Notes: a model not told the origin generated them from the letters alone. DNA of 36,668 nucleotides from Acidimicrobiia bacterium (GCA_022828045.1 JAJEIW010000130.1:1-36668), one strand, 5' to 3'; positions 21,488-36,470 are shown, counted from the stretch's first letter. Numbers and translations are program-made.

Positions 21488-24400
21488 ATGCTTGAAGGAA
21501 AGCTCCACGAGCACGATTTCAACGCCGCGCTCGCCGAGGCGATGAAGCGGATGCACGCCGACGATCGCGTCATCTTCAGCCACGAGCGCGTCGGCGTGCT
21601 CAGGCCCGTCTCCGGCGGCGGCTCGCGCCGCGTGGACGTGTTGGTGAGGGCCAAGAATCTCCTGCCGGTTGCCGTGGAGGTCGAATACGACCGCCCGGGC
21701 GCCAAGCCCGACCGCGATGCCGAGGCACGGCTGGGCCTCGAATTCGTCGGCGACGGTCGGGTGATCTCCTCAGCGATCTCGGTGCTCGCGCCCCCGCTGG
21801 CTGAGCAGTGGACCGATCACGAAGACGCCGTGAGCCGCCTCGTCGGCGGAGCGCAACTGCGGTACGCCGTCCTCTCTCGATCAGACGATGCGGCAGAGTC
21901 CCTCCGCTGGCCTCGGGCGGGCTGGCTCACCGGCACGGCGCAGTCGCTGGCCGAGCTTGCGGTCATGGTCTCGGTTCCGCCGGGTCAACTGGAGCTGGTA
22001 GCCGCCGACGCTGCCGACAAGATGCGCGGCATTTCAGAAGACCTCGCCGCCGACCTCAGCGACGACGCCAAGCTCCGGCTGGCGGCTGCGATGGGGCGGC
22101 CGTCTGGCTCGGACAGCCTCAGCGTGGTCGGCGTGGTGTGGCTGAACGCGTTTTTGTTCCAGGATCGGATCGCGCAGGCGCACCCCGATGTGCCGGAGCG
22201 TTCGGAGGCAGCGCCGGATTACGACCCGATTCCCGAGTTGGTCGGAAAGGCCTGGCAGGCGATTCGCAGGATCGACTACCGATCAGTGTTCGACCCCGCG
22301 GAGGCTGCTCTGCGAATCGTCTATCGAGATCTCGGAACGGCGCGCACCGCTCGATTGCTGGGGCGGGCGGCGCTCATCGCCGGACGGGTCGAATCGGGTG
22401 TGCTCGGCGTGTTCGACATCGGCGGTGAGCTGTTCCAGCGCCTTATCTCCGACAGGTCCGAGGCAGCGAGCTATTACACGCGGCCAGAGGTCGCGGAGTT
22501 CCTCGCCCACCTCACGGTCAACGACAGTGTGCGGCTGCCGCGCTCGGCCCGCGCGGTGGCGCTGGGCGAGTCGGATCACCTGGGCGAGGTCTTTCGCATC
22601 GCCGACTTCGCCTGCGGCACGGGAACTCTGCTCCGTGCGGCCTATCGGAGAGTTCGCGCCCTTGCGCGAGCGGCGGGAGCGCAGCCAGAAGGCTTGTCCG
22701 CGTTGCATACGCACCTGATGGAGGAAGGCTTCTGCGGCGTCGACATCTCGCCGATAGCGGCTCACCTGACTGCATCGAGCCTCTCGAACATCGAGCCCGC
22801 TGCCGATTACCGCCACACCAACATCGGCGTCGCGCAGGCATGCGGACCGACGGGAGCAACCGGATCGGTCGAGTATCTCGAAACCGATTATCTCGCCGAC
22901 CTCTTCGGATATGAGGCGTCGTCGACAGGGTCGGCACCTCGCTCTGACGCAGAAGCAGACGCACGAGGCCTGTACGCGCCCAAAGAGCGTTTCGACATCG
23001 TGATGATGAACCCGCCGTACTCGCGTTCACGCGGCGGTCAGGCCCTCTTCGACATCGCCGGGGCGACAGAAGCCGAGCGCAAGCGCGCCCAGAAGCGGGC
23101 GCAGGCCTTGGTCCGAGACACGCCGGCCGATCTCAAGGCCGGGCTTGCGGCAGTCTTCTGTGAGCTCGCGCGCCGAAAGCTCAGCCCCGGCGGGCGCGTC
23201 GGCATGGTGCTTCCCATCACCGCTGCGGCCTCTCCCGCGTGGTCGCTCATCAGGGCCATGTTCGAGACACACTTCGACGACCTCTTGCTCGTCGCATTTC
23301 CCGGCGCGACACGCGGCGGAGACAAGACGCTCTCGGCCGACACCGCCATGGGTGAGATGATCATCGCCGGCACCAGGCGATCTGAGCCCCACGCTGACCT
23401 CTCCGAGGCCGACATCATGACGGTGGCGCTCGATGAACCCTTCGGCACCATCGCCGTTGCTGCCGAGACGGGACGCTCAGTCGACGCCGCGCTCCGCGGC
23501 CGGGAGGAACAGCGGGAGGGCAACGTCACCGTCGGAACCGCGGTGAGCGGCCGCTGGACCATGCTGCCTGCTTCCGGGGGTGGGCCGTGGGCAGCCGTCG
23601 GCGCGGCGAGCTTCGGCGCCGTCGCCGTTGCCGAGCGGCTGACGCGGCGCGGCGAGTTCATGCCCCTCGACGCACACGAACCCGTATGCCGGGTAGCCAT
23701 GACGACAATCGGCGAGCTGTTCGAGCTTGGCCCGACGCATCACCGCATCGGCCATGTCGCGGGCAATGAGCCAATTGGTGCCTTCGAGCTGTGGCCGATC
23801 GCTGACGATCAAGTACGCCCCGACACGTCGTTGTGGGCATCCGATGCTGAGGCTCAGACCACCTTGACCGTTGACCCCACGCATTACGGTCACGTCGTCG
23901 GTCCACGGTTCAGCGATGCACGTGAACGTGCTCTCGTCCAGTTGCAACGCAAGCTGTCACGGACGAGTGGCGGCAAACCCAGCGACGCAGCAATCGAGGA
24001 GGCCCAAGCAGAAGCCGAAGCCGCCGAACGCTCCCGGTCGCAGAGCGCACTCGACGAGATGCGACGCTGCCGGTCCACGCTCTTCTACCAGCGGGGCATC
24101 TTCTGGCCGTCACAGGTGGCGCTTGCCGCGGTCACCGACAAACCGGTCATGGGTGGACGGGCCTGGTGTGCGCTCTTGCACGACGACCCCGTCGTCCGTT
24201 TCGGCTTCGCGATCTGGGCGAACTCGACGCTTGGGATGGTCGTCCACTGGTCGCGTGCGCAGCGCCAACAGCATGGACGCAGCAGTACGCAACTGGAAGG
24301 CATCCGACAGATGCCCTGCCCAGAATTCAACGAGACTGCAACGTACGCCAAGGCATTGGAATTGTTGGAACACGAGTCGGAACTCCTTCGCATGACACTC

Positions 24401-24562
24401 ATGCCCGCTCGTGACGCCTACCGTGATCCGGCGCGCGCGGCACTGGACGACGCAGCCGCCGGCATGCTCGGAATCCCCGACACCGAGTCGCTACGCGATC
24501 TCGCCCGCAACTGGTGCTGCGAGCCATCCGTCCACGACGGAACCCCGCCAGTGTTCGAGTGA
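21488..24562 (+). CDS. N6-adenine DNA methyltransferase, possible fused restriction-modification enzyme
   Basis: A 1024-residue protein with a typical gamma-class N6-adenine methyltransferase core. SYYTRPEVAEFL starts the core at 328, the AdoMet motif I is D373-FACGTGT, and the catalytic motif IV is N508-PPY, followed by SRSRGGQALFDIAG. GGRVGMVLPITAA matches the motif after the catalytic loop. The C-terminal 400 residues would hold target recognition. The N-terminal 110 residues contain VDVLV with D50 and VAVEVEY with E64 and E66, arranged like the strand core of PD-(D/E)XK nucleases, although a Lys in the usual place is not evident. It could be a type IIG-like single-chain enzyme or a solitary phage-defence methylase. 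No separate restriction or specificity gene is adjacent. Start ATG 21488 has GGGGA upstream. Confidence 0.85.
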   Translation: MLEGKLHEHDFNAALAEAMKRMHADDRVIFSHERVGVLRPVSGGGSRRVDVLVRAKNLLPVAVEVEYDRPGAKPDRDAEARLGLEFVGDGRVISSAISVLAPPLAEQWTDHEDAVSRLVGGAQLRYAVLSRSDDAAESLRWPRAGWLTGTAQSLAELAVMVSVPPGQLELVAADAADKMRGISEDLAADLSDDAKLRLAAAMGRPSGSDSLSVVGVVWLNAFLFQDRIAQAHPDVPERSEAAPDYDPIPELVGKAWQAIRRIDYRSVFDPAEAALRIVYRDLGTARTARLLGRAALIAGRVESGVLGVFDIGGELFQRLISDRSEAASYYTRPEVAEFLAHLTVNDSVRLPRSARAVALGESDHLGEVFRIADFACGTGTLLRAAYRRVRALARAAGAQPEGLSALHTHLMEEGFCGVDISPIAAHLTASSLSNIEPAADYRHTNIGVAQACGPTGATGSVEYLETDYLADLFGYEASSTGSAPRSDAEADARGLYAPKERFDIVMMNPPYSRSRGGQALFDIAGATEAERKRAQKRAQALVRDTPADLKAGLAAVFCELARRKLSPGGRVGMVLPITAAASPAWSLIRAMFETHFDDLLLVAFPGATRGGDKTLSADTAMGEMIIAGTRRSEPHADLSEADIMTVALDEPFGTIAVAAETGRSVDAALRGREEQREGNVTVGTAVSGRWTMLPASGGGPWAAVGAASFGAVAVAERLTRRGEFMPLDAHEPVCRVAMTTIGELFELGPTHHRIGHVAGNEPIGAFELWPIADDQVRPDTSLWASDAEAQTTLTVDPTHYGHVVGPRFSDARERALVQLQRKLSRTSGGKPSDAAIEEAQAEAEAAERSRSQSALDEMRRCRSTLFYQRGIFWPSQVALAAVTDKPVMGGRAWCALLHDDPVVRFGFAIWANSTLGMVVHWSRAQRQQHGRSSTQLEGIRQMPCPEFNETATYAKALELLEHESELLRMTLMPARDAYRDPARAALDDAAAGMLGIPDTESLRDLARNWCCEPSVHDGTPPVFE

Positions 24563-24622
24563 CCGCAGGTCGGCTCAGCGCGTCTTCCGGGGTGTGCGAC
24601 GTGTGCGCCCGTATGGAGCCTG

Positions 24623-25933
24623 TTAGGGGCCGAGGGCAGTGAGGGGCACTACGGAGATGCCGTCGGGGCGTGTGTAGGCGTAGCCGACGGGTGTCACCAC
24701 CATGAGCGCTGCTGGGGAACCGGCTCGGTCAGTGTCGACGCTTTCGGCCATTCGGTGCAGCGATGCTGCGGCTGTGTCGATCGAGGCTGGGCTGGGCGAG
24801 AGCTTGACCTCGACGGCGATCCACTCCCCGCCGAATCGTCTGCTGACGACGGCATCTGCTTCGATGCCGCTGTCGAGGCGGTAGTGCGTGATGTCGCAGT
24901 CGGCTCCCTCGGCGTAGATGCGCAGGTCTCGCACCACGAGCGACTCGAACAGCAAACCGCAGGTCTCGAGGTCGCGCAGCAGGGCATCGGGGTCTGCGCG
25001 CAGGATCGCGGCGGCCAGCGACGGGTCGGTGAAGTGCCGCTTCGGCGACCTGGTGAGGCGCGACCGCGAGCGAAGATGCGTCGGCCACGGCGGCTGGTCT
25101 TCGATCACGAAGATCTGGTGCAGAGCGTCGAGGTAGGCAGTTGCGGTCTGGTGGTTCAGCGGGCGTTCGCCACCGCTGTCCGCGGCGAGCCGTGCGACCG
25201 GCACTGTCGCAGCCGAGTTGCGGGCAAGCGAGATCATGAGCCGCTCCACCAGCACCGGGTTACGGCTGCGCGCCGACTCGCCGTTGATCTGCACGTGCCT
25301 CACCTCGTCGAGGTACTCACGCAGCCGTCGTTGTGCCTCAGCCGGCGTGGCGGCGGCGAGCCACGGCCAGCCGCCGATGCACAGCGCGTCGAGCACGTCG
25401 CGGAACTCCGGTTCAACGGCCGCGGCCTGAGCGGTCTCGCCCGCGAGCAGCGCTGCGAGCGACACTTGGCCCGTAGAGAGGCCCGACTCGAAGAGCGACA
25501 TCGGCCGCAGCCGAGTCCGCGCGATGCGGCCTGCACCGGAGTGCCGCATCCGGTCATTCGCCGGCACGGCCGACCCGGTGAGCAGGAACTGACCCGGCTC
25601 GGACGCGCGGTCGCAGGCATGGCGAACGTGGTTCCAGATCGTCGGCGCGAGCTGCCATTCGTCGAGCAGCTTGGGACGGGCGCCGTCGAGCACTGCATCG
25701 GGGCTGATGGCGGTCAGATCGCGTGCCGATGCATCGGCATCGAAGCGGACGATGCTGCGGGCGTGCCGCAGCCCGGTCCACGTCTTGCCGCAACCCTTGG
25801 GTCCCTCGATGAGCACCGCGCCCATGATGCGGAGCAGCTCGTCCACCTGCGCATCCGCGACGCGCTGCCGGTATCCCTGCGGCGTCAACGTTGCGCTGGG
25901 GCCGCCTAGCGCGGACCCCGGCTCAGCCGGCAT
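24623..25933 (-). CDS. AAA-family ATPase with DUF4143 C-terminal domain
   Basis: A 436-residue protein of the ATP-binding AAA_14/DUF4143 family found widely in bacteria and archaea and often linked to mobile or defence DNA; its exact role is not established. Walker A is GPKGCGKT (residues 44-51), Walker B is KLLDEW with D91-E92, and LLTGSA is the sensor-like strand. A winged-helix-like middle section follows. The C-terminal DUF4143 part ends with SGIEADAVVS and WIAVEVKLS, which resembles a PD-(D/E)XK nuclease-like core (D, then E-x-K). It is the only well-supported minus-strand gene of this region and is convergent with the methyltransferase, with 60 bases between them. ATG 25933 is the likely start; the upstream 224 bases are AT-rich. 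Confidence 0.88.
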   Translation of the reverse strand: MPAEPGSALGGPSATLTPQGYRQRVADAQVDELLRIMGAVLIEGPKGCGKTWTGLRHARSIVRFDADASARDLTAISPDAVLDGARPKLLDEWQLAPTIWNHVRHACDRASEPGQFLLTGSAVPANDRMRHSGAGRIARTRLRPMSLFESGLSTGQVSLAALLAGETAQAAAVEPEFRDVLDALCIGGWPWLAAATPAEAQRRLREYLDEVRHVQINGESARSRNPVLVERLMISLARNSAATVPVARLAADSGGERPLNHQTATAYLDALHQIFVIEDQPPWPTHLRSRSRLTRSPKRHFTDPSLAAAILRADPDALLRDLETCGLLFESLVVRDLRIYAEGADCDITHYRLDSGIEADAVVSRRFGGEWIAVEVKLSPSPASIDTAAASLHRMAESVDTDRAGSPAALMVVTPVGYAYTRPDGISVVPLTALGP

Positions 25934-27020: not shown

Positions 27021-28787
27021 GTGACGGCGACCGGCGAGTGGTCATACGACCGATACCGAGAGGGCACGGCGCCCCTTCCGCGTCCGAATCTGGCATGGAA
27101 TAGCTACGGCAGAGGCGTCGAGAGCATCGGCCGCGACGGGCGCCCGGAACCGGTCGATGTGCCGGCGCTGGCGCCCGATCAACTGCTGGTGCGGGTCGAC
27201 GCTGTCGGGCTCTGCTTCTCCGACGTGAAGCTGATCCGTCTGGGCTCCGAGCATCCCAAGCTGTACGGACGCGATCTGTCGATTGACCCCATTCGCCTCG
27301 GCCACGAGGCGACGGTGACGGTCATCGAGGTGGGCGACGACCTCGCCGACACTTACCGCACCGGTGATCGTCTCGCCATCCAGCCGGACATCTACTTGAA
27401 CGGCCGCAGTGTGGCCTACGGCTACACCATCCCCGGCGGCCTGATCCAGTACCACCTGATCGGTCCCGAGATCCTCGCTGCAGACGGTGTCTCCTATGTG
27501 ATTCCGGTTGCTGAGGGCATCGGATACGCGGCAGCAGCGTTGTCTGAGCCCTGGGCATGCGTGGAAGCTGCATACACGCAGCGCCGACGGCTGTGGCCGC
27601 GCAGCGACGGCACGGCCTGGATCATCGGCCACCCCGACGACGAGCGCAGCTACGACTTCGGCGAGACGCTTCGCGACACCGCTCGCGTCGTGCTCACAGG
27701 TGTGAGCCCGAGCACCGTCACGGCCGTACTCAAGGCCACGGGTCCGCGTACCGAGACATCTGTCGTCGATGCCTTGGAGTTGGCGGAGTATTCCTCGCTT
27801 GTCGATCGTGAGACCGATGGAGAGGGCTTCGACGACATCATTCTCCTCGACCCGAGGTCTGCCTCCGAGGTGACCGAGATCGCGCGGCACATCGCGTTTC
27901 GCGGCACGCTCAATCTCGTCAGCGAACGCTCGCTGGACGGTCCGTCGTCTATCGACTTCGGTCGTTTGCACTACGACTACACGGCCTTTGTGGGCACACG
28001 CGGCCCGAAGATTGCGGCGGCATACGGCGAGCAGCGCAATCGCTGTGATCTCCGTCCCGGCGGTTTGGCGGTATTCGTCGGCGCAGGCGGACCGATGGGT
28101 CAGATGCACGTGCAGCGCGCGCTCGAGAAGGCCGATGGCCCCGCGGTTGTCATCGGCATCGACCCCGACCGCGGGCGCCTCGACGTGCTGGCCGACTCGC
28201 TCGGCCCGCTCGCGGAACGCTCTGGCTGCGAACTCATCGTGCTGAATGCCGACGCGTCCGATCCGGGCGTGCGTGAGCTTGTCGATCAGCGTTCAGCCGG
28301 AGCTGGTGCCGACGATGTCATCGTCACGGTGCCAGTGGCATCGGTGATGGCTTCGGCGGCGCAGTTGATGAGCCCCGACGGGATGCTGGTGTTCTTCGCT
28401 GGCGTCGCCAACGGCACCACTGGGCCGCTCGACATGAGCCCGGTGTATCTGAGCAATGCTCAATACACGGGCACGTCGGGTTCGACACTGGATGATCAGG
28501 CGCTGGTGCTCGACAAAACGGCACAGGGCTCCCTGTCGCCCGACTTGAATCTGGCCGCGGTCGGTGGAATCGAAGCCGGCCGGGACGGCGTGCAGGCGAT
28601 GCTCGATGGCCGGTTCGCCGGAAAGATCGTCATATTCCCCCAGGTCACCGGAATGCCGCTGCTCGGACTGGACGAGCTGGCCGACAAGTTCCCGGAGATC
28701 GGCAGCGCCTTGGGACCGCAGGGCCAGTGGACCTCCGAAGCCGAACGGCGGCTGCTCGAGATCTGCGGAGTCGTCGAGGACTCGTGA
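27021..28787 (+). CDS. Medium-chain (zinc-type) dehydrogenase with extra internal domain
   Basis: A 588-residue oxidoreductase of the medium-chain dehydrogenase superfamily. The GroES-like half has C65 (VGLCFSDVK), G94-H95-E96 and E177 as likely zinc ligands, plus GGLIQYHLIG. The nucleotide-binding fold shows VGAGGPMG at 353-360. The usual length is about 340-410 residues. The excess is a segment of about 145 residues (roughly 195-340) containing AWIIGHPDD and DDIILLDPRS, which reads like a second, degenerate Rossmann-type unit. The nearest recollection is the L-sorbose-1-phosphate reductase type. Position at the head of a PTS operon suggests it oxidises or reduces the imported sugar or polyol phosphate; the substrate is unknown. 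GTG 27021 has a strong GGGAGGA upstream. The structural four-Cys zinc lobe is absent. Confidence 0.8.
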   Translation: MTATGEWSYDRYREGTAPLPRPNLAWNSYGRGVESIGRDGRPEPVDVPALAPDQLLVRVDAVGLCFSDVKLIRLGSEHPKLYGRDLSIDPIRLGHEATVTVIEVGDDLADTYRTGDRLAIQPDIYLNGRSVAYGYTIPGGLIQYHLIGPEILAADGVSYVIPVAEGIGYAAAALSEPWACVEAAYTQRRRLWPRSDGTAWIIGHPDDERSYDFGETLRDTARVVLTGVSPSTVTAVLKATGPRTETSVVDALELAEYSSLVDRETDGEGFDDIILLDPRSASEVTEIARHIAFRGTLNLVSERSLDGPSSIDFGRLHYDYTAFVGTRGPKIAAAYGEQRNRCDLRPGGLAVFVGAGGPMGQMHVQRALEKADGPAVVIGIDPDRGRLDVLADSLGPLAERSGCELIVLNADASDPGVRELVDQRSAGAGADDVIVTVPVASVMASAAQLMSPDGMLVFFAGVANGTTGPLDMSPVYLSNAQYTGTSGSTLDDQALVLDKTAQGSLSPDLNLAAVGGIEAGRDGVQAMLDGRFAGKIVIFPQVTGMPLLGLDELADKFPEIGSALGPQGQWTSEAERRLLEICGVVEDS

Positions 28788-29710
28788 TCACAACGCTGAC
28801 GCCGAATCCGAGTTTCGACCGGACACTGCGCGTCAGTGCACTTCAGCGAGGCGAGGTGCACCGGGCATCACTCGTACGCGTCGAGTGCGCCGGCAAGGGA
28901 GTCAACGTCGCCCGCGCCCTCGCTGTCAACGAGCACCCGGCGAGGGCCGTGTTCCCGGCCAACGATGAAGACTTCGCAGCCTTTGATGCCGCGTTGACCG
29001 CAACCGGGGTGACGTCGCATGCGGTCCGGATTCGAGGGTCCATCCGGAGCAACATCACCGTGGTCGAGCCCGACGGCACGACCACGAAAGTCAACGAGCC
29101 GGGACCGGAACTCAATGGTGCTGAGGCTGCCGAGCTGATACGAGCCGCGGTGACGGCCTCGGATTGGCTGATTGCCAGCGGAAGCCTTGCACCTCGAACG
29201 CCCACGGACTTCTACGCTCAGCTCGCCGCGTCACTTCCCGACGCGGCGCATCGGCTCGCTGTCGATTCAAGTGGTCAACCGCTTCAACAGCTCGTCGGTA
29301 CACCGTGCGCAGTGGTGAAGCCAAACCTCAGTGAGCTGGCCGATCTCACACCCCGGCGCTTGTGCACCGTGGGCGATGTCGTCGACGCAGCCCGGGATCT
29401 GCACGACGGCGGCTGGGGTTCGGTGCTGGTCAGTCTCGGACGCTTCGGCGCGGTGCTGGTGAGTGACGAGATCTCCTACGGCACGGTCGCTGCGACCGAT
29501 GTACGCAACACGGTGGGAGCGGGCGATGCACTGCTGGCTGGTTTCATCTCTGCAGGCGGTCGGGGAGTGACAGCGCTCGCCGAGGGCCTTGCCTGGGCCG
29601 CGGCCGCGGTGAGATCGGTGGGCACGGCGGGCGCCCGCGTCAGCCTTGATGATCGATGTGCGGTCGTCGTGTCGCAGTGTGTGCCGCGAGATCTGCCCGT
29701 GGAGGAGTGA
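28784..29710 (+). CDS. PfkB-family sugar phosphate kinase, 1-phosphofructokinase-like
   Basis: A 308-residue ribokinase-family kinase. The start MITTLTPNPSFDRTL, then AGKGVNVARAL and NTVGAGDALLAGF with the catalytic base at D248, are the signature of the 1-phosphofructokinase/tagatose-6-phosphate kinase subgroup. These enzymes phosphorylate fructose-1-phosphate or tagatose-6-phosphate to the bisphosphate. GTG 28784 overlaps the dehydrogenase stop as GTGA, and the protein aligns from its first residue with the family start, so longer starts are rejected. Being next to the dehydrogenase, it probably acts on the ketose phosphate made by that enzyme. No bisphosphate aldolase is in the window. Confidence 0.85.
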   Translation: MITTLTPNPSFDRTLRVSALQRGEVHRASLVRVECAGKGVNVARALAVNEHPARAVFPANDEDFAAFDAALTATGVTSHAVRIRGSIRSNITVVEPDGTTTKVNEPGPELNGAEAAELIRAAVTASDWLIASGSLAPRTPTDFYAQLAASLPDAAHRLAVDSSGQPLQQLVGTPCAVVKPNLSELADLTPRRLCTVGDVVDAARDLHDGGWGSVLVSLGRFGAVLVSDEISYGTVAATDVRNTVGAGDALLAGFISAGGRGVTALAEGLAWAAAAVRSVGTAGARVSLDDRCAVVVSQCVPRDLPVEE

Positions 29711-29712
29711 GC

Positions 29713-30390
29713 ATGCGCGAACAGTTCCCGCTCCCGATCTCGGCGATGTTCCGCTCCGGAATCTCGGGGTACTTCAAGAACGTTGTCCCGCTGACCTCCG
29801 CCGCTGCGGTCACCATCGCAGTATTCGGCGTCTTCCGATTCTGGGCACAGGCTGCCACCAATGACGACAGGGTCTTTCAGTCGATCGTCTTTGATCTCGT
29901 CGGGCTCGTGCTGGCTGGCACGATTGCGCTGCCGTGGTTCGCGTATGCCCTTGATGCTGCTCGCGACAAGCCGATCGACGTTGGCGGGCCATGGCGCAGC
30001 GGCAAACAGTTCGCCGCCCAGTTCGTATGCGCAGTCTTCTTCTGGGCGGCTTTCTTGCTCGGATTGCGCTACTTGGCAGGAATCCCGTCGATTCTCGCCG
30101 CGCTGTTCTACGGGTTCTACGGCTACGTCGTCGCAGATCGGGCGGCGAAGGGAGGCCTGCGAGCACTGGGCACCAGCGTCCGCCTCGGCACCAAGCGACG
30201 GGTTGCACTCTTCGCGATATTGGCGCTGTTCGGAGCATTCAATCTGCTGGCCGCGATCCCGCTCGGTTATGCCGTATCAGTGCTGACGGTCGTGCTCACG
30301 CTTGCCTTGCTCACCGTCACCGCCAGCGTCACGCTCGTCGGGTGGGCATGCCTGTACGACGCCTTGACTGAGCGACTGGACGAGCAATGA
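29713..30390 (+). CDS. Unrecognised polytopic membrane protein in the PTS locus
   Basis: A 225-residue membrane protein with about five or six hydrophobic spans (roughly residues 26-46, 55-76, 98-118, 122-140, 160-180 and 185-212). The N-terminus is amphipathic (FRSGISGYFKN), and the segment around AAKGGLRALGTSVRLG resembles loops of bacterial integral membrane proteins of the DUF975/YciC kind, but I cannot assign a family. ATG 29713 has GGAGG at 29701-29705; upstream starts run into the kinase gene. The 3' end overlaps ptsI by ATGA. Its tight coupling to both neighbours suggests a role in the same uptake pathway. Confidence 0.75.
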   Translation: MREQFPLPISAMFRSGISGYFKNVVPLTSAAAVTIAVFGVFRFWAQAATNDDRVFQSIVFDLVGLVLAGTIALPWFAYALDAARDKPIDVGGPWRSGKQFAAQFVCAVFFWAAFLLGLRYLAGIPSILAALFYGFYGYVVADRAAKGGLRALGTSVRLGTKRRVALFAILALFGAFNLLAAIPLGYAVSVLTVVLTLALLTVTASVTLVGWACLYDALTERLDEQ

Positions 30391-32093
30391 GCGAAGCACC
30401 AGAGATCAGGCTGGGCGGAACTCCAGCCTCGGCGGGCGTCGCCATCGGGCCGGCGATCGTCGTCGACCCGCAAGCAGCGGTGGTGCCGGATCTGGCAGAC
30501 CCTGCCGCTGCGTTCAGCGAAGCGAGCGCAGCGGTGAGTCGACAACTTGAATCGTTGTGCGAGACGGCTCGGGCGGCCGGGCGCTCCGAAGCGGGTGATG
30601 TCCTCGAAGCCCAGGCGCTGATGGCACAGGACCCGATGCTGGCCGACGCCGTTGCCACTGCGCTCGATGGCGGCGCCGGACTGGATGCCGCGCTGCATCA
30701 GGCGCGCCAGCAGATCGAGGAGCTGTTCGCGGCGATCGACGATCAGTACATCGCGGCACGAGCTCAGGACGTGATCGAAGTCACCGACCGGATCCGCCGA
30801 TCGCTCGCCGGCGTCGAGGTGCCCGACTTGGAGCAGATCGCTGAACCGTCGGTGCTCGTTGCGAGGGCGCTCACCGCGGCCGACACCGCCGCGCTCGACC
30901 CCGCATCGGTGCTCGGCTTCGCGACCGAAGCCGGCGGGCCCACCTCTCACGTTGCCATCATCGCTCGATCGCTGGGCGTCGCGGCCGTGGTGGGAGCCGC
31001 GGGCATCGTCGACCGCACGCGAGCAGGTGACCCGGTCGCCATCGACGGCGCGACGGGCGATCTCATCATCCACCCGACCGAGGCGACGCTCGACGATTTT
31101 GCGGCACGCCGCGAGGCGTTCGACGCCGCGGTTGCCGCCGCCGATCAGTTCAGGGGCATCAGCGTGGCCCTCGGCGAACATCAGGTCCAGGTGCCAGCCA
31201 ACGTGGGATCCCGCGATGACGTCGAGAGCGCCGTCGCCGCCGCGGCGGAGGGCATCGGCCTGCTTCGCACCGAGTTCCTGTTTCTCGACCGGTCTGATGC
31301 ACCCAGCGAGGACGAGCAATTCGATTTCTACGCGTTTGCCGGTTCCAGCTTCAGTGAACCCGTCGTGATCAGGACCTTCGACATCGGCGGCGACAAACCG
31401 GCGCCCTATCTCAGCATCGCACCAGAGGAGAATCCATTCCTCGGTGTGCGCGGCGCGCGGCTGTACAGCGAGTTCCCCGAGGTGTTCGAAACGCAGGTGA
31501 GAGCAATCCTGCGAGCTGCAATCGACTCCCCGATCTGTCTGATGCTTCCCATGGTGTCCACGGTGACCGAGATAGATGACCTGCGCAGCCGGATTGCCGA
31601 GATCTCGGCCGGGTTGACAGCAAGCGGAGTGCGCCATGAGATGCCGCCGATCGGGATCATGGTGGAAGTCCCCTCGGTGGCACTGGTGGCCGACGCCGTG
31701 GCACCCCATGTGGATTTCTTCTCGATCGGAACCAACGATCTCACGCAGTACGTCATGGCTGCTGACCGCACCAACTCCGGGCTCGACGAACTCCAGGATC
31801 CGCTCCATCCTGCGGTGCTGGCTCTGTGCGAGCGCACAGTGGCCGCGGCCAGGCGCAACGGCATCAGCGTGTCGGTGTGCGGTCTCGCTGCGGCCGACCC
31901 GCTCGGTGCTGCGGTATTCGCCGCCATGGGCGTCGACAAGCTCTCGGTCAGCCCGCGAGCGGTCAACATTGTGAAAGCGGCGGTCGCGGCAACAGATGCG
32001 TCGACGGCCGACTCGATGGTCCGGGCGGCCCTTGCAGCGGCGACCGCTGATGAAGCCCGCAGCATCATCGCCGACACGACTGGCAGCCCATGA
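30387..32093 (+). CDS. ptsI: Phosphotransferase system Enzyme I
   Basis: Enzyme I takes phosphate from phosphoenolpyruvate and passes it to HPr. The phosphorylated His is H188 in GGPTSHVAIIARSLG. The PEP-binding barrel shows RTEFLFLDR, FDIGGDKPAPYL, SIGTNDLTQYVMAADR and the C-terminal active-site Cys in VSVCGLAADP. Length is 568 residues, normal for the family. ATG 30387 overlaps the stop of the membrane protein gene. The 3' end overlaps the PRD regulator (ATGA). Having the general PTS enzyme inside a sugar-specific operon suggests this may be the only PTS in the cell. Confidence 0.95.
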   Translation: MSEAPEIRLGGTPASAGVAIGPAIVVDPQAAVVPDLADPAAAFSEASAAVSRQLESLCETARAAGRSEAGDVLEAQALMAQDPMLADAVATALDGGAGLDAALHQARQQIEELFAAIDDQYIAARAQDVIEVTDRIRRSLAGVEVPDLEQIAEPSVLVARALTAADTAALDPASVLGFATEAGGPTSHVAIIARSLGVAAVVGAAGIVDRTRAGDPVAIDGATGDLIIHPTEATLDDFAARREAFDAAVAAADQFRGISVALGEHQVQVPANVGSRDDVESAVAAAAEGIGLLRTEFLFLDRSDAPSEDEQFDFYAFAGSSFSEPVVIRTFDIGGDKPAPYLSIAPEENPFLGVRGARLYSEFPEVFETQVRAILRAAIDSPICLMLPMVSTVTEIDDLRSRIAEISAGLTASGVRHEMPPIGIMVEVPSVALVADAVAPHVDFFSIGTNDLTQYVMAADRTNSGLDELQDPLHPAVLALCERTVAAARRNGISVSVCGLAAADPLGAAVFAAMGVDKLSVSPRAVNIVKAAVAATDASTADSMVRAALAAATADEARSIIADTTGSP

Positions 32094-33610
32094 CGGCCCT
32101 GCTCGACACCCGTGCCCTGCGCATCACTCGGTGGCTGCTGCAACAGGACCAACCCCGCAGCACTGCCGCGCTTGCCTCAGACCTCGGATTGAGCCAGCGC
32201 GTCGTCCGTTATCGACTCGACCAAGTCGAGCGGTTTCTCCAAGAATGCGGTGCTGAGCTGGCACGCAAACGGGGCCAAGGCCTGCTGGTCACTGCCACAT
32301 CCGATGTTCGTTCGAGAATCGCGGCCGGCATCCGGTCATTGCCAGAGGTGCCGCGGGTGTATGCCCCGCCTGAAAGGGCGCGGATTCTCCTCGCGGCACT
32401 GCTGTGGGAAGCGCCGGACGTGGTGTCCCTCGAGGAGCTCCACCTGGAACTGGAAGTCTCGAAGACATCGGCTCGCCGCGATCTGCAGAGGTGTGAGCCG
32501 TGGCTCGAACGCAATGGACTCCCGCTGGTGCGACGCGCCGGCCGAGGGATCTCGCTGGTCGGCACCGAACGACGCATCCGCCGCGTGACTGTGCAGCTCA
32601 TTCTCGAAGCAATCCCAGAAGAGGTACTGCACCTGCAGCTCGCTGAGGCACCGTCTGCAGCGCAACAGGCGACCGCGCGGGTGCCCATCGGCCTGCTGGA
32701 GCGGATCTTCACGCTTCCCTTGGCCGAGACCGCCGCGATCGTTCGGTCCAGCGCACTCGGCCAGACGCTCACCACAGGCCGCAGCGATGCGGTCTTCGCC
32801 CTGTATCTGGCAGTGTCGGTCGCCCGGATCCAAGCAGGACGCTGCGTCGCACTTGATGCTGGTTCGCATCGGTCGGCGATGGACCATCCCATTGCCCGCA
32901 GCGTCGCGACCATCGTTCCGAGCTTGGAGCAGCTTGCCGGCACCAGCCTCCCCGCGGCAGAGGTGGCGACGATCACCGAATATCTGCTCGGACTCGATGC
33001 CCTCGACACCGCACACTCGGGTTCGGAGGGCATCGGCGATGAACTCCTCGACGCGATCATGCAACTCGCCGGCGACAGGCTTCACACGGCACTCGTCGAC
33101 GACTCGGAGCTCAGGCGTGGGTTGGCGGCTCATCTCGAACGTCTCGGTGTTCGCCTGCGCTATGGGTTGCCGATTCACAATCCCCTGCTCGAAGAAGTGC
33201 GCGAGCGTTATCCCGACGTGTATGCCGTCGCCGGCGAGATGGCATCACTGATCGCCGAGACGATGCATGTGGCGGTCGCTGAGGACGAGATCGGCTTCAT
33301 CACCATGTACGTCTCGGGTGCGATGGAACGAGCGCGGCTCCGGCCGAGGCGCCGCGCCCTCGTCGTATGCCCCAGCGGGATGGCCACGGTCTGGGTGCTC
33401 GTGTCTCGGATCAAATCCGAGTTCCCCGAACTGGACCTTGTGGAAGTCCTGTCTGAGGGAGGATTCGAAGAACTCCCGCATGATGACTTCGACCTCGTCA
33501 TCTCGACGGTGCCACTGCGGGCAAGCGACGTACCGGTGGTGGTGGTCAGCCCTCTGCTGTCGACAACCGATGTCGCACAGGTCGCGCTATACGCCTTATC
33601 CCGCGCGTGA
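32090..33610 (+). CDS. PRD-domain transcriptional regulator with EIIB-like domain (MtlR/BglG type)
   Basis: A 506-residue regulator. The N-terminus has a helix-turn-helix (STAALASDLGLSQRVVRYRLDQVERFL, about residues 22-50) and a second one near residues 110-135 (VVSLEELHLELEVSKTSARRDLQR). Two PRD domains follow with candidate phosphorylated His H266 (MDHPIARS) and H363 (PIHNPL). The C-terminal part is EIIB-like with C427 in LVVCPSGMATV. Such proteins sense PTS flux through phosphorylation and control transcription of their own sugar operon. No C-terminal EIIA-like domain is seen, unlike full-length MtlR. ATG 32090 overlaps the ptsI stop. It probably acts on the upstream region of EIIC and on 26910-27001. 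Confidence 0.88.
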   Translation: MTALLDTRALRITRWLLQQDQPRSTAALASDLGLSQRVVRYRLDQVERFLQECGAELARKRGQGLLVTATSDVRSRIAAGIRSLPEVPRVYAPPERARILLAALLWEAPDVVSLEELHLELEVSKTSARRDLQRCEPWLERNGLPLVRRAGRGISLVGTERRIRRVTVQLILEAIPEEVLHLQLAEAPSAAQQATARVPIGLLERIFTLPLAETAAIVRSSALGQTLTTGRSDAVFALYLAVSVARIQAGRCVALDAGSHRSAMDHPIARSVATIVPSLEQLAGTSLPAAEVATITEYLLGLDALDTAHSGSEGIGDELLDAIMQLAGDRLHTALVDDSELRRGLAAHLERLGVRLRYGLPIHNPLLEEVRERYPDVYAVAGEMASLIAETMHVAVAEDEIGFITMYVSGAMERARLRPRRRALVVCPSGMATVWVLVSRIKSEFPELDLVEVLSEGGFEELPHDDFDLVISTVPLRASDVPVVVVSPLLSTTDVAQVALYALSRA

Positions 33611-33636
33611 TATTGGCTCATATGCCATTGAGACAT

Positions 33637-33679
33637 GGTGCCGTGCGCGCACCGAATTGTCGTTACCGAAAGGTGCCGT
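33637..33679 (+). promoter_or_regulatory. Repeated GGTGCC motif upstream of EIIC
   Basis: GGTGCCGT occurs at 33637-33644 and 33672-33679. The first copy is also part of GGTGC-CGTGCGC-GCACC, an inverted repeat. A similar ATGGTGCC lies at 26971-26978, upstream of the dehydrogenase gene. These are candidate binding sites of the PRD regulator encoded next door. The 140-base gap (33611-33750) also contains an AGGGGG ribosome site before ATG 33751. Confidence 0.35.
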
Positions 33680-33750
33680 ATTGGCAGTAGATCCGGGTGG
33701 CTTCCAGGGGCAAGGATGATCCCATCGCCTGAAGCAAGGGGGTTCTACGC

Positions 33751-34887
33751 ATGCTTCAACGTGTCCAACGTTTCGGCGGCTTCTTGTCGAGCATGGTCAT
33801 ACCGAATATCGGTGCCTTCATGGCATGGGGTTTGATCACTGCTCTATTCATCCCGACAGGTTGGCTAGCCAAGACCAGCATTGACTGGGACTGGGATGCC
33901 ATCACCGGCAACATTGTCGGACCGACGATCGTGTATCTGCTGCCCGTTCTGGTCGCATACACAGGCGGCAAGCTGATCCACGGCCACCGCGGTGGCGTGC
34001 TCGGCGCAGTCGCTGTCCTCGGCGTCATCGGCGGTGCATCCTTCGAGTTGGCTTCTGGTGCCTCGGCCCAGAATGTGCCGCAGTTCCTCGGAGCAATGAT
34101 CGTTGGCCCGCTCGCGGGTTACGCGATGAGGGAGATCGACAAGTGGCTCGAGGACAAGCGTCCCGCCGGGTTCGAGATGCTCATCAACAACTTCTCTCAG
34201 GCCATCGCCGGGCTCTGCTTGGCCCTGCTCGGTTACGTGGTCATCGGACCGATCACATCGAGCATCGCCAACGCATTCGGCAACATGGTTGAGGGCATCA
34301 GCGATGCCGGATTGCTGCCGCTCATGGACCTGCCCATCGAAGTCGGCAAGGTGCTGTTCCTGAACAACGCCATCAACCACGGGGTGCTCACGCCGCTCGG
34401 CTCAACCGACGTGGCTGAGACAGGCCGCTCCATCTACTACATGCTCGAGTCGAACCCCGGACCTGGTCTGGGACTGCTGCTCGCGTACTGGTTTGCCGGC
34501 AAGGGGCTGGCCAAGCTGTCCGCCCCTGGCTCCATCGTCATCCACTTTTTCGGCGGGATCCACGAGGTGTACTTCCCGTATGTCCTGATGAACCCGGTGA
34601 TGATCGGTGCGATGTGGGCAGGCGGCATCACGGCCGACATTGTTTTCGTCATCTTCGATGCAGGCCTCACCGGGCCGCCGTCGCCAGGCAGCATCTTCGC
34701 CTACTTCTCGTTCTTGCCGTCCGACGGCGGTGCGGTCGCAGGCGTGCTGCTCGGTATTGCCGCAGGGGCCGCAGCCGCATTCATCGTCGGCTCGATCCTG
34801 TTGAGACTCTTCCCGGTTCCGGAGATAGACGACAGCGACGATGACACCTCGCTCGACGACGCCATGGAGGGTGTCCCGCTGAACTGA
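33751..34887 (+). CDS. PTS mannitol-family EIIC membrane permease
   Basis: A 378-residue sugar-translocating EIIC. The N-terminus VQRFGGFLSSMVIPNIGAFMAWG is typical of mannitol-type (MtlA) permeases. The conserved blocks VLFLNNAINHGVLTPLG and GGIHEVYFPYVLMNP contain the residues that bind the substrate. About eight hydrophobic stretches are seen. The protein stops after a short acidic tail (EIDDSDDDTSLDDAMEG), so EIIB and EIIA are not fused but encoded by the next genes. ATG 33751 follows an AGGGGG. Homology to mannitol permeases does not fix the substrate, because related permeases carry other hexitols. Confidence 0.92.
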   Translation: MLQRVQRFGGFLSSMVIPNIGAFMAWGLITALFIPTGWLAKTSIDWDWDAITGNIVGPTIVYLLPVLVAYTGGKLIHGHRGGVLGAVAVLGVIGGASFELASGASAQNVPQFLGAMIVGPLAGYAMREIDKWLEDKRPAGFEMLINNFSQAIAGLCLALLGYVVIGPITSSIANAFGNMVEGISDAGLLPLMDLPIEVGKVLFLNNAINHGVLTPLGSTDVAETGRSIYYMLESNPGPGLGLLLAYWFAGKGLAKLSAPGSIVIHFFGGIHEVYFPYVLMNPVMIGAMWAGGITADIVFVIFDAGLTGPPSPGSIFAYFSFLPSDGGAVAGVLLGIAAGAAAAFIVGSILLRLFPVPEIDDSDDDTSLDDAMEGVPLN

Positions 34888-34931
34888 GCCACGACGGAGG
34901 TTGCGCCGAGCCCCAGATGAGCGCGGCCTGA

Positions 34932-34974
34932 GGAGGCCGGGGCGGCTCAGGATTGCTGACCGCCCCGGTCCTCC
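34932..34974 (+). terminator. Strong GC hairpin between EIIC and EIIB genes
   Basis: GGAGGCCGGGGCGG (34932-34945) pairs with CCGCCCCGGTCCTCC (34960-34974), with one unpaired base, and CTCAG/CTGA extends the stem inwards. The tract after it, TAATCT, is not a good U-run, so complete termination is doubtful. In the middle of an operon, a partial terminator or mRNA-processing hairpin would lower or stabilise expression of the flanking genes. Confidence 0.5.
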
Positions 34975-35075
34975 TAATCTCAGTGGCCCATATTCTTCGT
35001 GGCACCGCCATCCTGCGTATTGGTCGGTGGCGCAGGAGCGGCACCAGTATCCGAAAGACCGACCGGAGATCAAAT

Positions 35076-35405
35076 ATGACGGAGCGAGTCACCAAGACGG
35101 CCAGCGACGTGAAGTTGATTGTGTTCGCCTGCGAAGCGGGTATGGGCAGCAGCCTGATGGGCGCAAATCAACTGAAGAAGATGGTCAAGAAAGCCAAGCT
35201 CGACATCGCCGTCGTGCATCGACCGGTAGGTCAGCTGGCTGACGATGCCGACGTGATAGTTGTCCATCAAGGCCTCGCGAAGCAGGCGCGGGAGAAAGTC
35301 CCGACGGCGGCCATCGTGCCGTTCGTGCTCTTCATGAATGACCCATCAGTGAAACAACTGGTCGCGACGCTGAAGGCCGGTGAGCCGGTCGTGTCAAAGA
35401 TCTGA
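35076..35405 (+). CDS. PTS EIIB component, mannitol family
   Basis: A 109-residue EIIB domain protein. LIVFACEAGMGSSLMGANQLKK contains the phosphorylated cysteine C19 and the loop that holds the phosphate, almost identical in pattern to the EIIB part of MtlA. EIIB receives phosphate from EIIA and transfers it to the sugar in EIIC. ATG 35076 is supported by GGAG about 8 bases upstream and by alignment of the domain; longer in-frame starts include the hairpin region and are rejected. The stop is 8 bases before the EIIA GTG. Confidence 0.92.
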   Translation: MTERVTKTASDVKLIVFACEAGMGSSLMGANQLKKMVKKAKLDIAVVHRPVGQLADDADVIVVHQGLAKQAREKVPTAAIVPFVLFMNDPSVKQLVATLKAGEPVVSKI

Positions 35406-35413
35406 GCTCTGAC

Positions 35414-35881
35414 GTGGACGACAGCGTGGACAACGGACTTGGGTCTGTGCTGACCCGAGCGGACGTTGTGCTCGGGTGCAGTGCGGATTCCATGGACGAA
35501 GCCATCGAATACTCGGGCAGCCTGCTCGTGAATCGCGGCTCGGTGACTCCGCCCTACGTCGAAGGGATGAAGAATCGCGAACGGGTTGTCTCCACCTACT
35601 TGGGCAATGGCGTGGCCCTGCCTCATGGGGTCAACGAGAGCAAGGAGTTCATCCGATCGACGGGGATCGTGGTCGCCCAGTATCCCGAGGGCGTCGACTG
35701 GGGGCCAGGAACCGCCTATCTGGTGGTCGGGCTTGCAGCGGTAGGCGACGATCACGTACGCGTCCTGTCGCAGCTTGCCGAGATACTGCAAGACGAGGAA
35801 TTATGCGAGCAGCTTGCGCAGACGGGTGATGCCGACTTCGTCTACGACCAGCTGAGCGCTGCGCCGTCGGACGACGATTGA
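35414..35881 (+). CDS. PTS EIIA component, mannitol/fructose family
   Basis: A 155-residue EIIA protein. The active-site His is H71 in GNGVALPHGVNES, matching the (A/V)xPHG pattern of mannitol/fructose-type EIIA. The helical start (DEAIEYSGSLLVNRGSVTPPYVEGMKNRE) is the usual EIIA N-terminal element. It receives phosphate from HPr and gives it to EIIB. GTG 35414 is the first start in frame after the EIIB gene, and the following HPr gene starts 21 bases downstream. All expected domain parts are present. Confidence 0.92.
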   Translation: MDDSVDNGLGSVLTRADVVLGCSADSMDEAIEYSGSLLVNRGSVTPPYVEGMKNRERVVSTYLGNGVALPHGVNESKEFIRSTGIVVAQYPEGVDWGPGTAYLVVGLAAVGDDHVRVLSQLAEILQDEELCEQLAQTGDADFVYDQLSAAPSDDD

Positions 35882-35902
35882 CCCCAGGAGTTGGAGATCT
35901 CG

Positions 35903-36166
35903 ATGGACCCGATGTTCGCCGAAGTGGTCATCACCAATCCGCATGGCCTTCACGCCCGGCCTGCCGCAGTCATGGTCGAGAAGTTGAAGGCATTCGATGC
36001 GGAGGTCAGGATCGAAGCCGGCCAGAAGACCGCCAATGCGGTGAGCATCATGAGCGTGCTCGCGCTCGGAGCGGGACCCGGTGACACTGCGCGAGTCCAC
36101 TCAGAGGGACCGCAAGCCGAAGCCGCGCTTGAGGCTGTCGTGGCCATTCTCACCGAGGAGGAATGA
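35903..36166 (+). CDS. ptsH: Phosphocarrier protein HPr
   Basis: An 87-residue HPr. The phosphorylated His is H17 in NPHGLHARPAA. The regulatory serine region is visible as NAVSIMSVLALGAGPGD, with S48 at the position of Ser46. It shuttles phosphate from Enzyme I to EIIA. ATG 35903 has GGAG at 35893-35896; a TTG at 35891 is possible but would overlap the ribosome site. Seryl phosphorylation needs an HPr kinase, which is not in this window. One base separates its stop from the next ATG. Confidence 0.95.
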   Translation: MDPMFAEVVITNPHGLHARPAAVMVEKLKAFDAEVRIEAGQKTANAVSIMSVLALGAGPGDTARVHSEGPQAEAALEAVVAILTEEE

Positions 36167-36167
36167 C

Positions 36168-36470
36168 ATGAGCCGACTCGACCATGACGCGCTGACTGCA
36201 GCTGTGGCGGCAGCGGTTGGCGCGACTGCCGATGCTTCGGGCGCAGCCGATCTCGTGTTCGACAAGGGATCCATCGTCGTCGCGGCCAGCGTGGACGACC
36301 TCAAGGGTGCCTTCAAGCGTGTCAAGAAGATCGACGGCTACCGGTGGGTGGCCATCAACCGCGCCGATCTGTTCGGCGCGAACCCGCTCTCCCTTGGGTC
36401 TAAGGCCGGAATCATCGATGCTCACGGCGAGATTCTCAAGAACGCGGACATACCCCGCAGGAAGGTCTGA
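36168..36470 (+). CDS. Unrecognised 100-residue protein at the end of the PTS locus
   Basis: I do not recognise this protein. The N-terminal half is Ala/Asp-rich and probably helical (LDHDALTAAVAAAVGATADASGAA). The second half has alternating hydrophobic residues that suggest strands (SIVVAASV, YRWVAINRADLF, AGIIDAHGEIL) and a basic C-terminus (PRRKV). There are no Cys and no membrane span. ATG 36168 follows the HPr stop by one base with GGAGGAA upstream, so it is translated with HPr. It may be a PTS-associated regulatory or sensing protein, by position only. Confidence 0.75.
   Translation: MSRLDHDALTAAVAAAVGATADASGAADLVFDKGSIVVAASVDDLKGAFKRVKKIDGYRWVAINRADLFGANPLSLGSKAGIIDAHGEILKNADIPRRKV

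Follow-up and report, generated by a model that had tools for sequence, protein, structure and literature searches.

The window, the whole stretch of 36,668 nucleotides from an Acidimicrobiia bacterium that was analysed, contains a cassette of ten genes at positions 27021-36470, all on the + strand according to open reading frame and family calls. Judged from its sequence, the cassette is probably a self-contained mannitol phosphotransferase system (PTS), with a route from mannitol via mannitol-1-phosphate and fructose-1-phosphate to fructose-1,6-bisphosphate. The wider proposal, in which a dehydrogenase with tandem Rossmann modules serves this route and the new accessory proteins U100 and Mem are needed alongside a dedicated EI/HPr pair, is more tentative, and we lean slightly away from it.

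Organisation of the cassette

Neighbouring genes mostly overlap or almost touch; the longer intergenic gaps are those between the PRD regulator and EIIC (140 nt) and between EIIC and EIIB (188 nt). The G+C content of the window is 66%. From 5' to 3', the features are:

27021-28787, + strand: DH, zinc-type medium-chain dehydrogenase of the SorE/YggP group, 588 amino acids (Pfam ADH_N and ADH_zinc_N above cut-off)
28784-29710, + strand: PfkB kinase, 1-phosphofructokinase subfamily (TIGR03168); the GTG start at 28784 overlaps the DH stop
29713-30390, + strand: Mem, membrane protein without family, 225 amino acids
30387-32093, + strand: EI, PTS enzyme I (TIGR01417, 444 bits, cut-off 342)
32090-33610, + strand: PRD regulator, HTH - HTH/Mga - PRD - IIB-like (Pfam)
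33657-33691, + strand: conserved element TTGTCR-N16-TATTGGNAGTRGCG, likely promoter/operator (conservation before EIIC)
33751-34887, + strand: EIIC, mannitol (MtlA) type (TIGR00851, MtlA identity)
34931-34975, + strand: intercistronic hairpin in the EIIC-EIIB gap (stem common to 34 loci)
35076-35405, + strand: EIIB, Cys in CEAGMGSS (PTS_IIB above cut-off)
35414-35881, + strand: EIIA, mannitol/fructose type, His in ALPHG (PTS_EIIA_2 above cut-off)
35903-36166, + strand: HPr (PF00381)
36168-36470, + strand: U100, soluble protein of 100 amino acids without family, directly after HPr

Eight of the genes, all except Mem and U100, are assigned by Pfam or NCBIfam, and they are the same eight components that the first-pass annotation had placed together in one locus. 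The phospho-Cys of EIIB and the phospho-His of an EIIA-2, both expected of a mannitol-type PTS, are present (Pfam, sequence motifs). The PRD regulator differs from the activators of the MtlR type, which have HTH domains, two PRDs and both IIB-like and IIA-like domains: by Pfam it has HTH domains, one PRD, an IIB-like domain scoring just under cut-off and no IIA-like domain. EIIA and HPr, separate genes in the window, appear as one continuous reading frame in the related loci L057, L059, L061 and L064-L070. Upstream of the cassette, a methylase-like gene and an AAA/DUF4143 gene are located at 21488-25933.

The transport protein and its substrate

EIIC shares 52% identity with E. coli MtlA and 53% with CmtA over about 340 residues, and retains the GGIHE and NNAINHG motifs. 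Against TIGR00851 (mtlA IIC) it scores 404 bits over nearly the full model, below the curated cut-off of 468. The strongest clue to the substrate comes from two variant cassettes, L102 and L090, in which a classical MtlD, with both Mannitol_dh domains above cut-off, follows EIIA and is fused to HPr. The L102 cassette starts at Mem, with unrelated genes upstream, and lacks DH and PfkB, while the L090 contig begins inside the PRD gene; DH was not found in the genomes of either. Conversely, none of the 21 genomes with the main cassette (whole, cut or broken) has a strong MtlD match; they yield three weak partial matches of 29-31% identity. Strong MtlD matches occur in G405 and G406 only, and the window's genome has no match to this hallmark of the classical mtl operon. 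DH and MtlD are reciprocal in their occurrence, the natural replacement being seen in two MtlD variants only. Because EIIC is of the MtlA type and MtlD takes the place of DH in the variants, the substrate is most likely mannitol, which narrows the earlier assignment of the locus to an unknown substrate. In the MtlD-HPr frames (L090 2607-3977, L102 8619-10001), a polyol-phosphate dehydrogenase is joined to a phosphocarrier, an unusual combination.

The dehydrogenase, the kinase and the proposed route

DH aligns with YggP and SorE with an HHalign E-value of 1.4e-34 over 394 columns, leaving an insert unaligned; tblastn gives 26-30% identity to SorE/YggP over 91-92%, indicating full-length homology. 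Members of the SorE/YggP group are about 410-425 amino acids long and contain one cofactor domain, whereas DH, at 588 amino acids, contains a duplicated, degenerate Rossmann-like module. Residues 196-343, approximately, have no counterpart in the SorE/YggP alignment. This insert resembles the true cofactor domain of DH, giving an internal repeat (z 5.7-11.4, seven homologues), and in the AF2 model DH has two Rossmann modules, the insert folding separately; the insert has no glycine motif. An identical type of insert is present in a Deinococcus plasmid protein of 564 amino acids, 40-42% identical to DH. This long-form relative is found with FGGY kinase and ABC transporter genes and no PTS, so the DH family is not tied to phosphorylated polyols, which counts against the proposed role.

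PfkB scores 250 bits against TIGR03168 (cut-off 216) and 248 against the equivalog model TIGR03828, under its cut-off of 292; it scores 92 on the Pfk-2 model and 85 on the LacC model. A 1-PFK-type PfkB is likewise paired with an MtlA-type EIIC and a zinc dehydrogenase in the outgroup loci L072 and L073, described below.

SorE acts on the carbon adjacent to the phosphate, converting L-sorbose-1-phosphate to glucitol-6-phosphate and back. Since D-mannitol is symmetric and shares its configuration at that carbon with glucitol, the same chemistry on mannitol-1-phosphate would give D-fructose-1-phosphate. We propose that EI and HPr, encoded only in the cassette, relay phosphate from PEP to EIIA, EIIB and EIIC in turn, and that the MtlA-type EIIC imports mannitol as mannitol-1-phosphate. 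DH would oxidise the carbon beside the phosphate to yield D-fructose-1-phosphate, PfkB, as a kinase of the 1-PFK type, would convert this to fructose-1,6-bisphosphate, which would then be cleaved by the class I aldolase encoded on the chromosome. The first-pass annotation had favoured a pathway in which a ketose phosphate is turned into a bisphosphate, and the joint presence of a SorE/YggP-type DH and a 1-PFK-type PfkB, standing in for MtlD, supports it. It had also argued against the simple mannitol-1-phosphate route; here the step that follows does appear to change, but mannitol-1-phosphate is very probably still the first intermediate. If the scheme is correct, mannitol-1-phosphate can be consumed in a second way that does not pass through fructose-6-phosphate. 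No description of a fructose-1-phosphate route for mannitol, or of yggP with cmtA, was found in the open-licence literature.

Two other assignments of the enzymes were weighed. With mannitol as substrate, DH could yield fructose-6-phosphate as MtlD does, and PfkB could be a 6-phosphofructokinase making the bisphosphate. DH replacing MtlD one for one would fit such a scheme, as would the pairwise identities of PfkB, where the 32% to Pfk-2 equals the 30% to FruK. However, PfkB scores about 150 bits higher on 1-PFK profiles, SorE-type enzymes act beside the phosphate, which on mannitol-1-phosphate would give fructose-1-phosphate, and PfkB is missing from the cassette of the MtlD variant L102, which argues that the kinase goes with DH; we regard this assignment as unlikely. 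Alternatively, the substrate could be another hexitol or a ketohexose (glucitol, L-sorbose, tagatose or fructose), with DH and PfkB acting on the matching ketose phosphate. DH does belong to the L-sorbose-1-phosphate reductase group, the SorE reaction with sorbose-1-phosphate and glucitol-6-phosphate makes a glucitol-type substrate possible, which counts against mannitol, and EIIA is as near to fructose EIIA (42% identity) as to mannitol EIIA (41%). Yet EIIC falls clearly in the MtlA/CmtA group, known sorbose operons use mannose-family EII proteins and the variant cassettes carry MtlD, leaving a different sugar decidedly improbable.

Comparison with known systems

The E. coli cmtB-cmtA-yggP-yggF region likewise places an MtlA/CmtA-type EIIC beside a SorE/YggP-type dehydrogenase; in strain K-12, yggP adjoins cmtA and cmtB, and fbaA is located a few genes downstream. 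This region differs from the cassette in its EIICB fusion, in having the general EI and HPr elsewhere and in the presence of yggF (a bisphosphatase) and yggC, while PfkB, the PRD regulator, Mem and U100 are absent and YggP does not have the extra Rossmann module. If the proposed route is right, it suggests a testable role for yggP beside cmtA/cmtB, and hints at that of the cmtAB-yggP genes as a whole.

With the classical mtlA-mtlD(-mtlR) operon, the cassette shares mannitol-type EIIC, EIIB and EIIA, and its two variants also carry MtlD; it differs in having DH and PfkB for MtlD, its own EI and HPr, EIIC, EIIB and EIIA as separate proteins, and two proteins without known function. In the L-sorbose operon of Klebsiella and Lactiplantibacillus, SorE is homologous to DH (26-28% over 91-92%), but the operon contains mannose-family EIIABCD and an SDR enzyme where the cassette has MtlA-type EII components and PfkB. 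The fructose PTS fruBKA likewise combines a 1-PFK-type kinase with EIIA and HPr and follows the same logic from fructose-1-phosphate to the bisphosphate; it uses a fructose EII (FruA) rather than an MtlA-type EIIC, and needs no dehydrogenase. Work on the mannitol/sorbitol pathway of Haloarcula hispanica (PMC11519228) likewise deals with mannitol breakdown in a setting where fructose-1-phosphate and 1-phosphofructokinase feature; there, in contrast, the free polyol is taken up by an ABC transporter and oxidised to fructose before phosphorylation, and no PTS is involved.

General enzymes and aldolase

The window's genome is a draft, 84% complete, in which a genome search found no second HPr. The only other match to PEP-utilizing enzymes is pyruvate phosphate dikinase and not EI. 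HPr was found in two of 21 genomes searched, both cassette holders, with one copy each. As no other EI or HPr was found in the genome, a check that the first-pass annotation had called for, the cassette seems to bring the general enzymes with it. That the cassette is the genome's sole source of EI and HPr, and that a PRD-IIB regulator lies within the operon, would also suit a PTS that is mainly regulatory, with transport secondary. Against such a function, EIIC is complete and has its transport motifs, the catabolic enzymes are dedicated ones, and the PTS is wholly absent from most congeners, so no general regulation depends on it; we consider a mainly regulatory system very improbable, and retain the catabolic one.

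The aldolase that had been reported missing from the window is indeed not there; a class I fructose-bisphosphate aldolase is encoded elsewhere in the genome, at G000:C29 (found via PF01791; 602 bits, cut-off 327). The search for a class I aldolase with PF00274 had no positive control. A class II aldolase is absent from the window's genome according to the genome search. An aldolase in the longer PRD-EIIC gaps of some loci was ruled out, these gaps containing AAA/DUF4143-type and other genes.

The proteins U100 and Mem

No relative of U100 was found in Pfam, NCBIfam or the PDB. Homologues from different families share 49-77% identity with the window's copy, 28 alignment columns are invariant, and dN/dS values of 0.03-0.13 indicate strong purifying selection. 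This selection, together with the recurrence of the gene order across the order, shows that the locus is not a chance assembly. The AF2 model of U100 is confident (pLDDT 89), and comparison with PDB folds gave no match better than E=1.4. Profile searching of PDB sequences yielded only azurin matches, at chance level. The 26 homologues compared share no conserved His or Cys, so U100 is not a phosphocarrier of the usual type.

Mem has no Pfam or NCBIfam family; its best Pfam matches, to RhaT (0.011) and DUF975 (0.07), are weak and isolated and were dismissed. It is more variable than U100, at 34-68% identity outside the genus, and is kept in every cassette in which that region is present. L102, which lacks DH and PfkB, retains both proteins, and L090 retains U100. 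Because they remain when the catabolic enzymes are swapped, they probably serve the transport or phosphotransfer side, as accessories to transport or the phosphorelay rather than to catabolism. The first-pass annotation had drawn attention to two proteins of unknown family; they prove to be real and conserved, and stay with the PTS genes. It also suggested looking for them next to other PTS operons; 33 of 34 U100 loci are the same cassette, and the outgroup PTS loci L072 and L073 have neither protein. If the reading is correct, they define two conserved, PTS-tied protein families whose function is not known.

Control regions

Nearly all of the 32 loci compared carry the element TTGTCR-N16-TATTGGNAGTRGCG, 64-89 nt before EIIC, and it scores 10.3 out of 12 on average, against 7.7 in shuffled sequences. 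Its conservation suggests a separate promoter for the PTS half, which the PRD regulator probably controls through this element. In several loci an added dyad, GTGGCGNNCGTCAC, lies downstream of it. The EIIC-EIIB gap (34888-35075 in the window) contains a hairpin with 8-22 uninterrupted stem pairs in all 34 loci (shuffles, mean 6.9); it is GC-rich, without a clear T-run, and its sequence differs among loci. This suggests a processing or attenuation point after EIIC, and the hairpin may govern how much of the membrane part of the PTS is made relative to the soluble parts. Rfam revealed no RNA in the locus.

Distribution and probable exchange of the cassette

An EIIC search of 397 genomes from the order detected the cassette or relatives of it in 27, and gene order and strand are preserved in about 20 Acidimicrobiales genomes. 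Of 20 retrieved regions, 18 match the window's cassette in gene content and order, some being cut by contig ends, the other two (L072 and L073) having the outgroup arrangement. In L072 this is DeoR-PfkB-EIIC-EIIB-EIIA-zinc dehydrogenase-HPr-EI; both lack the PRD regulator as well as Mem and U100. These outgroup loci (L072 10477-16471, L073 839-6706) represent a second mannitol-type PTS operon within the order, of simpler build; its regulator is of the DeoR type, its PfkB of the 1-PFK type, and its zinc dehydrogenase about 345 amino acids long.

Scanning 84,980 species genomes with U100 gave 34 loci, all from metagenome-assembled genomes titled Acidimicrobiia, Acidimicrobiales or Acidimicrobiaceae, and one Actinomycetes. 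U100 is directly 3' of HPr within the cassette in 33; all ten genes are visible in 24, DH being cut by the locus end in some. The sole exception, L075, is a broken remnant in which DH and U100 are truncated and the middle is replaced by unrelated DNA. A strict search for DH in 397 genomes across the phylum detected it in just two, that of the window and another from the order.

The cassette and its counterpart in congener G008 are about 99% identical in DNA for most of their extent, against 82% for the flanking respiratory-complex genes. Positions 28801-31600 (PfkB, Mem and the 5' part of EI) are 85-93% identical, with about 99% on both sides, a pattern taken to be a mosaic recombination tract. 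The contrast between cassette and flank, with most congeners having no PTS, fits recent exchange of the cassette as a unit by recombination. A full PTS including its general enzymes would then move as one unit among bacteria otherwise without a PTS.

In congener G001 (L008 16250-17210), the central part of the cassette has given way to unrelated DNA, near the end of which there is an imperfect inverted repeat, GCCTAATCAACCGCG ... CGCGGTTGATTAGGC. Loci L058, L060 and L062 contain other AAA/DUF4143-type genes inside the PRD-EIIC gap.
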